Origin: Allorhodopirellula heiligendammensis
GTDB lineage: Bacteria > Planctomycetota > Planctomycetia > Pirellulales > Pirellulaceae
Direction: 5' to 3'
Assembly (NCBI RefSeq): GCF_007860105.1
Contig: NZ_SJPU01000001.1
Coordinates: forward strand, 310,001 to 374,000
Length of the DNA: 64,000 nt
A model generated the notes under the pieces. It searched no databases. It saw only the letters and a program-made list of their open reading frames with translations, and was not told where the DNA came from. The translations under genes were made by a program, and so were the position numbers. This document shows, piece by piece, positions 5,722 to 12,298 of this stretch (positions are counted from its first letter, which is position 1; every line of letters starts with the position of its first letter).

Positions 5722-7458
5722 TTATTGAAGTGTCATCAGCCACGCGCCACAGACAGCCGCTAGGATGCACGCGAGAACAGCTGAAACTCGTTTCCAATAC
5801 GTGGCGGGATCACGAATCAGCAAAGGCTGGCCTTCTTTGATGAACTCTTTGCGGGGATGATAGAGGTCGTATACGAATTCGGCTGGCTCTTCGTAGCGAA
5901 GATTAGCATTTAGGTGTAGCGCTTTAGCCAGTGTACCATCGATCCACCCTGGCAGATCACTATGGGGCGTGATCGCTGTGGCATACCTCAGCTTGCTTTG
6001 CGCAGCGCGGGTCCGCGTACGTGCGAGATGGGGACCGTATGGCAATCGTCCCGTCAGCATTTGATAGGTGATCACCGCGAGCGAAAACACTTCCGACCGC
6101 GGCGTCCCGGCTTCGCCCCGCAGAACCTCGGGTGCCATGTACTGAACCGTGCCGAGCAGATTACTGGGCGCCAATTGCGACGTCGATTCGGCCAATCCAG
6201 CCACCCATGTCGATCCAAAATCGATGATTTTCACCGTACCCTCGCGGTCAATCAGAATGTTCTCAGGCCGTATATCCTGATGAAGCATTTCTTGACGGTG
6301 AAACGCTTGCAGCCCTTTGCCGATCTGCTGCACGATGCCGCGTACAACATCCAAAGGCGGCAGCGGATTGTCCCTCATCCACTGTGTCAGTGTTTGTCCG
6401 TCAATATATTCGGTGATCGTATAAAGATACTTTCGTTTCCGCGACGGCAGATATGCCTTCAGCACATTAACGTTATTCAGCCGCCGCGCCACCCACTCCT
6501 CACTGAAGAACCGATTGAGATGGCCTGGGTCTTGCTGCTGTTCCGTGGAGAGCGTTTTCATGACAACAAGATCACCGGTTTCCAAATCGGAAACCAAATA
6601 CACATGGCTCCGACTGCTGGCATGAAGCTCACGAACAATTCGGAATCCGTCAAACTCGTCTCGCGGCGATAGTTGCGGAGGGAATGGCAGATCGATCAGG
6701 TCCGCGTGTACCTCGATGGAATTTGTTGCAGGGACCGATACGACGCGAACGATCTGAGCGGTTAGATTATCGTCACTCTTCTGCAGGACAGCCGTGTCGA
6801 CAAGCATCTTGGCCGCAGCATCAAGATCGTTACAGCTTTCATCGATAATTCTGCAGATAGAATCGTCGTCAACGAAATCATAGACACCGTCACTGAGCAG
6901 AATGAACACGTCTCCGGGCTCCAGCACAAGCGATCGATAGTCAATTTCCAACTCGGTATGAAACCCGATGGCCCTCGTCAGGTAGCTCGTTCGTGAGGTC
7001 ACACGCAGCTGATGGTCTTCGGTTAACAGGTCAAGTTGGCTGCCTCGCAAGCGATAAACACGGGTGTCACCGATATGAAACAAATGCGCCGTCGCAGACT
7101 TGAAAACTAAGCCGCTGAACGTGCAAACATACCCCTTGTCCTGATCTTCCAAATACCGGCTCTGACGAGACATCGAGTGCAACCAATAATTGGTTGCCGC
7201 CAGCACTTTGAATACGGAGTGCTTTACTGTCCAAGCTTCCGAGGTGCAGAAGTAATCATTCAGGAATGCCTTGACCACCGTCTCGGCGGCGACCTGGCTG
7301 ACATCGCTGGAGCTGATTCCGTCGGCCAGCCCAACCGGGATTCCCTTCGTTGTGCGAAGCGGTTCGCTGGGAAGACAAAAGCCGTGAAAATCCTGATTGG
7401 ACGGCTTGATGCCCGGGCTGGAATGCTGGCCGATGATGAGGTCGAGCTGCGTTGGCAT
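5722..7458 (-). CDS. PP2C phosphatase / Ser-Thr kinase fusion, membrane-anchored
   Basis: A 578-residue bifunctional signalling protein. The PP2C phosphatase domain covers about residues 1-245 and keeps the metal-binding motifs NQDF, GLADGIS, SDGVYDF and SDDN. The kinase domain covers about residues 270-530 and has the ATP lysine in VVMKTL, DFG in KIIDFGST and MAPEVL. The glycine-rich loop is replaced by HASSRS, and the catalytic loop reads HQDIRPEN, with Gln for Arg and Arg for Lys, so activity is likely altered. A single C-terminal transmembrane helix ends the protein. The ATG overlaps the TAA of the upstream nirC gene by one base (TAATG), implying translational coupling. Its likely role is control of nitrite uptake or nitrogen assimilation by phosphorylation; this is inference from context. 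Confidence 0.92.
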   Translation of the reverse strand: MPTQLDLIIGQHSSPGIKPSNQDFHGFCLPSEPLRTTKGIPVGLADGISSSDVSQVAAETVVKAFLNDYFCTSEAWTVKHSVFKVLAATNYWLHSMSRQSRYLEDQDKGYVCTFSGLVFKSATAHLFHIGDTRVYRLRGSQLDLLTEDHQLRVTSRTSYLTRAIGFHTELEIDYRSLVLEPGDVFILLSDGVYDFVDDDSICRIIDESCNDLDAAAKMLVDTAVLQKSDDNLTAQIVRVVSVPATNSIEVHADLIDLPFPPQLSPRDEFDGFRIVRELHASSRSHVYLVSDLETGDLVVMKTLSTEQQQDPGHLNRFFSEEWVARRLNNVNVLKAYLPSRKRKYLYTITEYIDGQTLTQWMRDNPLPPLDVVRGIVQQIGKGLQAFHRQEMLHQDIRPENILIDREGTVKIIDFGSTWVAGLAESTSQLAPSNLLGTVQYMAPEVLRGEAGTPRSEVFSLAVITYQMLTGRLPYGPHLARTRTRAAQSKLRYATAITPHSDLPGWIDGTLAKALHLNANLRYEEPAEFVYDLYHPRKEFIKEGQPLLIRDPATYWKRVSAVLACILAAVCGAWLMTLQ

Positions 7459-8285
7459 TACGCCGCTTTAGCGTCAACAACGACACGTTTCGGCGCGGTT
7501 CGAACATGCGTCGTGTACAGCGTCAGTCCGGTCAGAGCGATCCCGCCAACCATATTACCCAGCACCACCGGAATCTCGTTCCAAACCAAGTAGTCCGCGA
7601 CCGAGAACTGACCTCCCATAATCAATGCCGACGGAAACAGAAACATATTCACGACAGAATGCTCAAAGGTCATATAAAAGAACAGCATGATCGGCATCCA
7701 CATGGCAATCACCTTGCCACTGACGTGCGTGGAAATCATCGCCCCGACGACGCCCATGGATACCATCCAATTGCAGAGCATACCCCGAATGAAAAGAGTG
7801 AGCATCCCGCCGGCACCGTGTGACTTGTAACCGAGCGTTCTGGCCTCGCCGATGCCCGCGATAACTGTCCCCACCTCGTTCGGTTCATCAGTGTATCCGA
7901 AGGTGAAGATGATCGAGAACATGACTGCGACCATCAATGCGCCAGCGAAGTTCCCCACAAACACTAATCCCCAATTTCGCAGCACCCCGCCGAGCGTGAC
8001 ACCTGGGCGTTTGTCGAGCAATGCCAGCGGAGACAGTGTGAAGACGCCCGTGAGCAAGTCAAATCCCATCAGGTACAGCATCACGAAGCCAACTGGAAAC
8101 AGGATGGCACCGAGTAGCGGTTGCCCAGTCTGCACATTGATGGTGATTGCAAATACAGCCGCCAAGGCGAGGGTGGCACCGGCCATGAAGGCGCGAATAA
8201 CCGTGTCCCGCGTGGACATAAAAATTTTGGATTCACCAGCATCGACCATCTTGGTCGTGAATTCAGCAGGGGCGAGATAAGACAT
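7458..8285 (-). CDS. nirC: Formate/nitrite channel of the FNT family, NirC-like
   Basis: A 275-residue inner-membrane protein with six hydrophobic segments and FNT-family landmarks: AFMAGATLALAAVFAI at the first helix, GFDLLTGVFTL, a central NW.LV..GN..GAL block, RGMLCNWMVSMGV and FEHSVVNMF. These place it with nitrite channels of the NirC type. I chose the ATG at 8285 over an upstream frame extension because an AAGAGA ribosome-binding site precedes it and the upstream residues look non-coding. It lies between the nirBD-derived chimera and the phosphatase/kinase gene, both on the same strand. The role is passive or proton-coupled nitrite transfer across the membrane. Confidence 0.93.
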   Translation of the reverse strand: MSYLAPAEFTTKMVDAGESKIFMSTRDTVIRAFMAGATLALAAVFAITINVQTGQPLLGAILFPVGFVMLYLMGFDLLTGVFTLSPLALLDKRPGVTLGGVLRNWGLVFVGNFAGALMVAVMFSIIFTFGYTDEPNEVGTVIAGIGEARTLGYKSHGAGGMLTLFIRGMLCNWMVSMGVVGAMISTHVSGKVIAMWMPIMLFFYMTFEHSVVNMFLFPSALIMGGQFSVADYLVWNEIPVVLGNMVGGIALTGLTLYTTHVRTAPKRVVVDAKAA

Positions 8286-8489: not shown

Positions 8490-9008
8490 CTAGACACAGG
8501 CCGCACAGGCTGAGGACATGTCGCATACAGACTGTTTGGTCAGCGAGTGGAGATCGGTGGCCAATAGTGCATCAAGTTGCGATTCAGGTGGAAGTTTCAG
8601 GTAAACTTCACCGTCATCAACCCGCACCGGGAACACTTTTACCGATAGCGGCTCACCTGAGAGTCCTTGCCCGGTCTTCAATGAGAATGTTTTCTTGTGC
8701 AGCGGGCACGCGACCTTCGGTTCTTCACCACGACTGCCCACGATGCCGCGGGAGAGGACGAAGGCGTTCATGTGCGGGCACATATTCTGGCAGGCATACC
8801 ATTCGCGGCGCGCAATCATCAGCTTCTCGGCATCCCGATGCGCAAAGAATGATGTCAATCCGACCCTGTCGTACGCGGCACGCGACTCTTCACAGAACGT
8901 CGTCACTTGGCAAGATCGATCTTTGTCGAACCCAATCAGCTTTTCAATGAAGCGATGTCCGACCATGCCGTTGCCGATCACAACGATCTTTCGTTTCTGT
9001 ATTGTCAC
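8490..9008 (-). pseudogene. nirB'-'nirD in-frame chimera (nitrite reductase remnant)
   Basis: The first ~65 residues from the GTG at 9008 match the N-terminus of NADH-nitrite reductase large subunit NirB: KIVVIGNGMVGHRFIEKL, TFCEE, AYDRVGLTSFF. At ARREWYA (8793-8813) the protein switches without a frameshift to the small-subunit NirD Rieske-like fold. That part has CPH and CPLHKKTFSL as the 2Fe-2S ligands, then FPVRVDDGEVYLKLP and a Cys-rich end (C.....AC.AC). Nearly all of NirB, including its NADH, 2Fe-2S and siroheme regions, and the first third of NirD are missing. The frame also has an ATG at 9098, but residues before the GTG look non-coding. I read it as a deletion between short similar sites encoding REWYA. 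It could instead be a functional small ferredoxin-like protein or an assembly error. Confidence 0.8.
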
Positions 9009-9098
9009 GCCGAAGTACCAATGTCTGGATATGCCTGTCGTGCGCGCAGCGATAGCACTACGCCTGAGGACCAGCTGTAAACGCATCCCCCGTGCCAA

Positions 9099-9424
9099 TC
9101 AGATTATTTTGTCCTCAAACACCGTTAATCGCGGCATTTCGCGCATCGAACGGCTGTGAGGTCTTTCCCAGACGCCAAAACTTTCAGCAGCGGGAGCTAA
9201 ATAGATGGGCAGCCTCCTGTGCTCCCCTCTTGCCTGCACGGCGCGGGACGAATCGAGCGGACTCTCCGTGGAGATAAGAACGCCGGTATGCGACTCAGCG
9301 AAGATTGCGTCCCAGGGCAGGTCGCCGGGTGGGGGTCGATGGAATCAACAGCCCATTGACCAGTTCCCATACGCGATCACCAAATTAAGGAGCGGCGGAA
9401 TTGGTTTCGGTTGTGAAGTCGAAC
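9099..9424. other. Non-coding gap between the nir remnant and the phosphatase-GH13 gene
   Basis: No family-like reading frame on either strand. It should contain the upstream control region of the nir genes near 9099-9200. I see no clear hairpin or recognisable operator. Confidence 0.5.
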
Positions 9425-12298
9425 TCAGGCGAGCGAAAGGTTCTCGTACAATACGATGGCTTGATTTGGGTGCAGACAAATCGATTCCGCCGAGTTCCCG
9501 CTGATCGCAGCTTGACTGTCCAGGATCGGAGGCGGGAAGCCCTCACTCAATTGCAAGAACTCTGCAAGCTCGGCTTGCGACATTGCATCGTCGTTGGGAC
9601 GCAACTCCGGCGTGGAATCTGCCAGGCGGCACACCACGAAGAGCTGTTCATCGCCACGCCGAAACTGCAATGCGTAGCAGCCGCGATCGACATCTGTTCT
9701 CACAACCAGATGCTCACCTGCGAGTAAACCTGAGCGGACGAATCGATGACGCACGGCAATCAGATCGCGGTACCAGGAATGCATAGCAATACTGCCAGCA
9801 CTGACCTCACCGATGCGCGCCGACTCAAATGCAACCGCGTCGGTCGGCAGCACGCCGCCGGACCAATCATGTTGCGGGTACTCACGCCGGCGCCCCTCGA
9901 CGACTGCTTTACGCAGCGACTCGTCGCCAAAGTCAACGAAGAACGCGAACGGATTTTCGCAAGCGAACTCCTCGCCCATGAATAGCATTGGGATCGCCGG
10001 AGAAAGCACTAGTAGCGTCGCCGCAGCAGCCTGGGTTTCCGAAGCGGTAATCTGATGAAAGCGTTGCCCGAGCGGATGGTTGCCAATGAAATCATGATTT
10101 TGGATGCAGTAAACCACACTCGATGTATCTACCCGCAGGGCCGTCGCGTTTCCAATTTCTTCACGACCACGGTCGCCACGGACGTCACCCCGAAAGACGA
10201 ACCCACGATGGAGCGCGCGAGCTAAGTCTTGGTGCGGTTCATAGGTACGGACAGTCAAACGATCTCGAGAACGCACGCACGCTAACAAAGCGTGTGCGAA
10301 GTCGTCACCCCACTGAGCATCGAACCCGCAGCCATGTTCGCTCAGCGGCGCGGTCATGGAACCGTCGTACACATTCGTTTCGGCGATCAACCAGATCCGT
10401 CGCCCAACACGTTCCGACCACTCTCGAACTTCGCGGCCAAACTGACGCGTGATGTGCTCGTCGCTGTGATCGCGCATGCAATGAATGGCGTCGACTCGCA
10501 GGCCGTCGAAGTGAAACTCGTCGAGCCAATAAATTGCGTTGTCGATCACCAGCCTCCGGATCGCTTTCGCTGCGGATCCATCGTCAAAGTTGGGCGATGC
10601 GCCCCAAGGCGTGTTGTGACGGCTAGAGAAATATTCCCCCAGCGTCGACCAATAATTCCCTTCGGGGCCGAAGTGGTTATAAACCACATCGAGAAACACA
10701 TTGAGCCCACGGGCGTGGGCGGCGTCGACGAAATGCCTAAGATCGTCGGGAGTCCCCATCGCGTTCATGGGTGCAAACCAATGCGTCGCGTCATATCCCC
10801 AATTCCACCTGCCGGGACACTGCGCAATTGGCATCAACTCTATCGCGGTGATCCCCAAATCAACGAGTTCATCAAGCCGCTCGATCGCACTGAGAAACGT
10901 GCCCTCGGACGTGAACGCACCTATATGAAGCTCGTAAATGACCAAGTCTTCCCGCCGAGTGGGGCGCGTGTGGTCGTCGTGCTGCCAAGGAAACTGACGA
11001 GAGACCACGCGGGAAAATCCATGCACACCTTCGGGCTGGTAACGCGACGCTGGGTCTGGGATCGCAGATGCCTCTCCATCCGCATCGATAGCCTTTGAGC
11101 CCAGCCGCAGGCGATAGTCAGTGCCGACCGGACAGTCATCCACCGACGCGCTGAAGAAACCGTCTTGACTTCGTTCCAGCTCGATCAATCTCGTTGCCGC
11201 CGATGCCGCCTCCGGTCGCCTGAACTCCAGTGAAAGCGTTTGATGCGCTGGAGCAAAAACGGAGAACTGCGTGCGGCGATGCCCCACGGGAACAGCACCC
11301 CACGGTCGGGGAATCGTCTGATCGACCGTGATTGAACTTTCGCCCCTCGCTGGAAGACCGCATCCAGCTCGCCAACCGAACCAGCGTAGACCTTCGAGCA
11401 CCCCAGCCGTGCTGGATTTTGACGCCAACAACAGGCGGTCGGTCCACCCCCGTTGAGCATGAGCTTGAAACACGCGTGCAGCGAGTCGCCGATCGGCATT
11501 CGCGACAACAACGGCACGGTATCCCGCGACGAGCGCCGCATAGTCGTTACCGGAATCACCGCAAAAAACGACCTCGTCGTTGCGATACCCTTGGTCACGG
11601 CACCACCAATCCAGTGCAAAGGCTTTCGAGACATCTTGAGGCAGCACGTCAACGAGACCATCGCCGTTAAACGGATCGACACTACTGATCACGCTGTAGG
11701 GCAGCGAGTTGCTCAAAAGATAGCTCTCGACGGCGTGGTGGCACTCCTCGACGGACTCCGCAGCGACGTAGTAACTGAGCTTGTGCCGTTTCTGCTTAAA
11801 CGATTCCTGCATGCGAAATCCGGGTAGAGCACCAACTTCGTTGCGAACTCGTTCAATATCCAACTCGCCAACAATCTCGTCGAGGCATTTGGCGAAGCTG
11901 TCGCTCAGGCGATACTCCGACGCGAGCGTCTGCGCCGTCGTCACGCCGCCCGACTCGCCCTGCGAGGGCGTCTGGCAAACGCCCTGGTAGGATTCAGCGC
12001 CCTGGTTCGGTGCGGCACCTGGTATACGTTCGTAAAGACTAGTGCCCACGTCACATAGAATCCAATCGGGCTGAGGCAGTCCATCGGCAACGATCGCCTC
12101 GAAGACAAAATCCAGATGGCGGCCGGTAACGAAGAGCAGCGGAAATTTCTCGTCGGCCAATTGGCCTCGTATTTGCACCAGTGCCTGATCAGCCTCTGGA
12201 TCGTTGCCCAAGGGAATGAATGTGCCATCCAAATCGGTGGCGAGTGCGCGTGGGCCGGGGGTGATTTTCATTTGCATAGAGACCGAGTTGATTTGCAT
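9425..12298 (-). CDS. HAD sucrose-phosphatase-like / GH13 trehalohydrolase-like fusion
   Basis: A 957-residue two-domain enzyme. Residues 15-300 are a HAD-IIB phosphatase of the sucrose-6-phosphate phosphatase type: DLDGT (D22, D24), the conserved Lys region and CGDSGND (D248, D252). Residues 330-957 resemble malto-oligosyltrehalose trehalohydrolase (TreZ, GH13). They comprise an N-terminal beta domain (FSVFAPAHQTLSLEF), then DVVYNHFGPEGNYW, nucleophile D603 in GLRVDAIH, acid/base E640 in WLIAETNVYD and the QNHDFIGNHPLGQR block. A TreZ partner, TreY, is absent here, so the true substrate is open. It is divergent from the fructokinase gene and next to sucrose synthesis genes. An alternative start at codon 8 or 10 is possible. 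Confidence 0.9.
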   Translation of the reverse strand: MQINSVSMQMKITPGPRALATDLDGTFIPLGNDPEADQALVQIRGQLADEKFPLLFVTGRHLDFVFEAIVADGLPQPDWILCDVGTSLYERIPGAAPNQGAESYQGVCQTPSQGESGGVTTAQTLASEYRLSDSFAKCLDEIVGELDIERVRNEVGALPGFRMQESFKQKRHKLSYYVAAESVEECHHAVESYLLSNSLPYSVISSVDPFNGDGLVDVLPQDVSKAFALDWWCRDQGYRNDEVVFCGDSGNDYAALVAGYRAVVVANADRRLAARVFQAHAQRGWTDRLLLASKSSTAGVLEGLRWFGWRAGCGLPARGESSITVDQTIPRPWGAVPVGHRRTQFSVFAPAHQTLSLEFRRPEAASAATRLIELERSQDGFFSASVDDCPVGTDYRLRLGSKAIDADGEASAIPDPASRYQPEGVHGFSRVVSRQFPWQHDDHTRPTRREDLVIYELHIGAFTSEGTFLSAIERLDELVDLGITAIELMPIAQCPGRWNWGYDATHWFAPMNAMGTPDDLRHFVDAAHARGLNVFLDVVYNHFGPEGNYWSTLGEYFSSRHNTPWGASPNFDDGSAAKAIRRLVIDNAIYWLDEFHFDGLRVDAIHCMRDHSDEHITRQFGREVREWSERVGRRIWLIAETNVYDGSMTAPLSEHGCGFDAQWGDDFAHALLACVRSRDRLTVRTYEPHQDLARALHRGFVFRGDVRGDRGREEIGNATALRVDTSSVVYCIQNHDFIGNHPLGQRFHQITASETQAAAATLLVLSPAIPMLFMGEEFACENPFAFFVDFGDESLRKAVVEGRRREYPQHDWSGGVLPTDAVAFESARIGEVSAGSIAMHSWYRDLIAVRHRFVRSGLLAGEHLVVRTDVDRGCYALQFRRGDEQLFVVCRLADSTPELRPNDDAMSQAELAEFLQLSEGFPPPILDSQAAISGNSAESICLHPNQAIVLYENLSLA

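Follow-up and report, generated by a model that had tools for sequence, protein, structure and literature searches.

A probable in-frame deletion remnant of a fused nirBD nitrite reductase gene in Allorhodopirellula heiligendammensis

The 64,000-nucleotide stretch of Allorhodopirellula heiligendammensis DNA analysed here (the window; contig NZ_SJPU01000001.1, positions 310,001 to 374,000) contains one short open frame that begins as NirB and ends as NirD. We wanted to establish how such a frame could have arisen and whether its product is likely to serve the cell as a protein in its own right.

Composition of the chimeric frame

The frame and its parts, in window coordinates, are the following.

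8490..9008, minus strand: in-frame nirB'-'nirD chimera of 172 codons and a stop, probably starting at GTG
8808..9008, minus strand: NirB-derived part, residues 1-67, the start of the NirB N-terminal domain including the GNGMVG motif
8793..8807, minus strand: junction zone coding R-E-W-Y-A (CGCGAATGGTATGCC), where W-Y is common to the NirB and NirD homologs
8493..8792, minus strand: NirD-derived part, residues 73-172, retaining the C-terminal tail and the two Rieske ligand motifs

The likely start is the GTG at 9006-9008 and the stop lies at 8490-8492; upstream of the GTG, the chimera frame stays open to a TTG at 9098. Approximately 67 residues of the NirB N terminus are followed by NirD from about its residue 32, with the join within R-E-W-Y-A. 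Positions 2-73 of the NirB profile NF011565 aligned with chimera residues 5-76 (E 1.8e-20), and a second NirB model, TIGR02374, was matched at positions 1-70 only (E 8e-18), scoring 64 bits where the cut-off is 578; judged by this cut-off and by the siroheme/[4Fe-4S] cysteine motifs, the chimera is not a full-length NirB. Nor is it a fused nirBD gene, having 172 codons compared with the ~1,000 of a complete frame, of which 67 intact examples were found in relatives. The NirD model TIGR02378 aligned from its position 32 to its end at 105 with chimera residues 67-140 (E 1.4e-25; 89.4 bits, cut-off 74.65), and the cluster ligand motifs CPH (residues 77-79) and CPLH (residues 101-104) are both intact, their Cys and His ligands being invariant in a 58-row alignment. 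By score and motifs the chimera is thus a NirD, but it does not hold a complete Rieske fold, because the profile match begins at NirD position 32 and strands 1-3 are absent; the Pfam Rieske_2 match similarly begins at profile position 29 (E 2.9e-22). The original prediction, which described a NirB N terminus joined to a NirD Rieske domain at ARREWYA with no frameshift, with CPH and CPLH intact and the rest of NirB missing, is borne out in these respects.

Compared with the NirD small subunit (Rieske_2 family; PDB 3c0d, 2jo6, 2jza, and 4aiv), the chimera matches through residues 67-140 and keeps CPH and CPLH, motifs that planctomycete fused NirBD proteins also bear, but it lacks NirD positions 1-31 (strands 1-3) and has the NirB fragment in their place.

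A probable fused parent gene and the missing ~2.5 kb

Fused NirBD proteins have been described in fungi and in Klebsiella (NasB), among others (PMC4013037); our literature search returned this account of fused NirBD in general and nothing on the present nirB'-'nirD chimera. In the nearest planctomycete relatives (Pirellulaceae and others), nirB and nirD form one fused open frame, typically of ~1,030 codons. Both ends of the chimera align with fused NirBD of the NasB type in the same N-to-C order, and in comparison with the fused NirBD at locus L063 the NirB half is 75% and the NirD half 65% identical. Relative to such a protein, the chimera is without ~2.5 kb of coding sequence, which takes in the NADH and siroheme/[4Fe-4S] parts, the bulk of the FAD part, and the initial third of NirD. 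Both of its ends therefore fit a single parent gene from which internal sequence is missing, the pattern that marks a deletion remnant. Further, in trees built separately for each half, the NirB and NirD parts both fell inside the same planctomycete NirBD clade, with modest support, the pieces being short. These comparisons make it almost certain that a single fused nirBD gene was the parent. We considered, and rejected, an origin from separate nirB and nirD genes, as the two are fused in the nearest relatives and both parts of the chimera belong to the same planctomycete clade.

Alignment to planctomycete relatives revealed W-Y at both the NirB and the NirD site. Among the relatives' nirBD genes listed, the two W-Y sites are spaced 2,478-2,616 nt apart and lie in the same frame of one gene, so that the product of a single internal deletion between them stays in frame. 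In-register identity at the two sites spans 4-10 bp in 44 fused genes, mostly within or around TGGTA, these lengths being those of the relatives' genes rather than of the chimera's own parent. We propose that a fused gene for an NAD(P)H-type assimilatory nitrite reductase of ~1,030 residues would have undergone a single internal deletion of ~2.5 kb, probably mediated by the short repeat, which brought the W-Y codons that follow the NirB N terminus up against those just before the NirD Rieske ligands. The suggestion that recombination occurred between REWY-coding sites stands as far as the joined E/D-W-Y-coding sites are concerned, but not in taking nirB and nirD as separate parents.

A clean internal loss of this length would also be expected if the organism's nirBD were intact and the assembly had dropped the ~2.5 kb between the W-Y sites. 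We regard such a collapse as very unlikely, since the repeat at the join is merely 4-10 bp in relatives, far under normal assembly overlaps, and since a search of the 35 contigs did not recover the remaining nirBD sequence; the separate loss of nirBD at the corresponding position in a sister genome (below) argues against it as well. A full-length NirB elsewhere in the genome, for which the original prediction had recommended a search, was likewise not detected on the 35 contigs, all remaining matches falling under the family cut-off.

Neighbouring genes, the sister locus, and nitrite assimilation

The chimera is flanked as follows.

9009..9101, minus strand: 5' flank, still aligning with the locus of the sister genome G006
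7458..8285, minus strand: formate/nitrite transporter family gene, downstream of the chimera, 92% identical in G006
5722..7458, minus strand: PP2C phosphatase-Ser/Thr kinase fusion gene, next after the transporter, 80% identical in G006

The pair formed by the transporter and the PP2C-kinase fusion (5722-8285) is rare in planctomycetes and is retained in G006 and G241; the transporter was found in 5 of 241 family genomes and in 2 of the 392 of a phylum sample. No intact nirBD was detected beside the pair in G006 or G241, nor did the family and phylum searches return one adjoining it anywhere; with no such relative found, the parent gene is one that we infer. Distantly related kinases in G051 and G053 adjoin genes that resemble, by eye, ammonium transporters and amino-acid permeases, not nirBD. 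In comparison with G006, the transporter is under strong purifying selection (dN 0.055, dS 1.75, the latter near saturation), and the PP2C-kinase fusion is also under purifying selection (dN 0.13, dS 3.4, near saturation; dN/dS ~0.04). On the other side of the locus, the window holds at 9425-12298 (minus strand) the gene for a 957-residue protein that combines a sucrose-phosphatase-like HAD domain with an alpha-amylase-family domain and adjoins genes for a PfkB kinase and a sucrose-phosphate synthase/phosphatase-like protein.

G006 is the sister of A. heiligendammensis in the NirA tree (NirA 91% identical) and the only one of 12 congeners to carry this transporter, and likewise the kinase. Its orthologous transporter-kinase locus contains, in the slot before the transporter, a different nirBD remnant.

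L152:7670-7984: nirBD remnant of G006, NirB residues 1 to ~40 running in frame into the siroheme segment
L155, ~7729-8178, minus strand: cut nirB of G085, the rest of nirBD not found within the 14-kb region

The two sister loci share their position, the 5' flank, the downstream transporter and kinase, and an in-frame internal deletion; the 5' flank and N-terminal DNA (window 8927-9101) are 71% identical to the G006 locus over 177 nt. The G006 remnant differs in its endpoints, which run from the NirB N terminus to the siroheme segment, in the loss of NirD, in an in-frame stop, and in its conserved residues, 5 of 13 conserved columns in the retained part being altered. Because G006 retains a segment that the chimera has lost and is without segments that the chimera keeps, the two deletions are independent. 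Further, in G085, from another genus of Pirellulaceae, nirB ends after ~145 residues on a 1.77-Mb contig. Independent remnants in both sisters, together with this cut nirB, indicate that nirBD erosion has recurred in the family. Two other loci were left out of this count as possible sequencing errors: L065:5672-8438, from a MAG, holds a nirBD without the NirB N terminus and with several broken frames (decay or sequencing error), and the nirBD of L091 is split.

The genome also carries one intact cluster (C1:55.2-63.1 kb) encoding an Fe-S/membrane protein, a NasA-like molybdopterin enzyme, a NirA family protein (NF007126, 886 bits versus a cut-off of 523), and a CysJ-like flavoprotein; the NasA-like enzyme scored below the NasA cut-offs and is named from its operon context and its similarity to planctomycete nas genes. 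Each of the 13 genomes of the genus encodes members of both Pfam families, the siroheme and the molybdopterin enzymes. A loss of assimilatory nitrite reduction, offered in the original prediction as one outcome of the recombination, is not supported, and we reject it on the gene content, as the NasA-like/NirA cluster appears intact. Loss of nirBD would have been tolerated because the NasA-like and NirA proteins presumably cover the same step.

Remnant or retained protein

With the NADH, [4Fe-4S]/siroheme, and most of the FAD-binding parts gone, the chimera is expected to be without nitrite reductase activity. Its product might instead have been retained in a new role, either as a small soluble Rieske-type [2Fe-2S] protein or as a translated leader that preserves translation or expression of the transporter. 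The frame is open, all ligand motifs are intact, strong purifying selection acts on its operon partners, and the retained core resembles NirD structures (1.5-1.9 Å over ~70 columns; TM-scores, normalised to the target, reach 0.60). The chimera also displays no change at any of the 62 columns that are conserved in 90% or more of the 67 intact homologs. Either the deletion therefore happened recently or the product is under constraint. If neutral, zero changes in 62 codons, at an assumed ~2.3 nonsynonymous sites per codon, would limit divergence since the deletion to ~0.02 substitutions per site or less (95%; a rough estimate), far below the near-saturated synonymous divergence from G006. The conservation fits youth and selection equally well, and one sequence cannot separate the two. 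The terminal branch of the NirB half is long (0.32, compared with a median of 0.07 and a 90th percentile of 0.28), which weakly hints at relaxation.

The missing NirD residues make up three strands of the Rieske fold. AlphaFold2 returned a pLDDT of 72.9 and a pTM of 0.51 for the chimera, below the values for the intact NirD domain from L063 (90.1 and 0.80, first three strands present), a comparison that is imperfectly matched, as the chimera model includes the NirB fragment in addition and was built from a different alignment. We therefore consider it doubtful, on these models, that the chimera would form a stable Rieske protein. Further, the chimera was not found in the rest of the 241 family genomes searched or among the 80 loci kept from a GTDB scan, and the remnant in the same slot of G006 has decayed. 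Taken with the youth that accounts equally well for the conservation, these observations make a retained new protein or leader unlikely. The specific proposal that a gene-internal deletion produced a small Rieske protein, or a translational leader, that selection maintains and in which a NirB flavin-domain fragment replaces strands 1-3 appears quite unlikely. The birth of a new small Rieske protein, as originally suggested, is thus compatible with the conservation, but its missing strands, its absence from every other genome searched, and the broken sister remnant speak against it.

Overall, we favour, with a probability of roughly 0.8, the reading that the chimera is what a recent in-frame deletion left of a fused nirBD gene that was redundant, and that it is most likely non-functional; the deletion allele would be young, and the downstream transporter and kinase would be kept for their own sake. 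For annotators, the locus is a warning that a NirD model match above the cut-off does not amount to a functional NirBD. Should the cell prove to make and use the product, the chimera would be an instance of a new small redox protein arising by one deletion. As we read it, a redundant nitrite reductase gene is eroding independently in two sister species, while the transporter and the kinase/phosphatase gene beside it stay.
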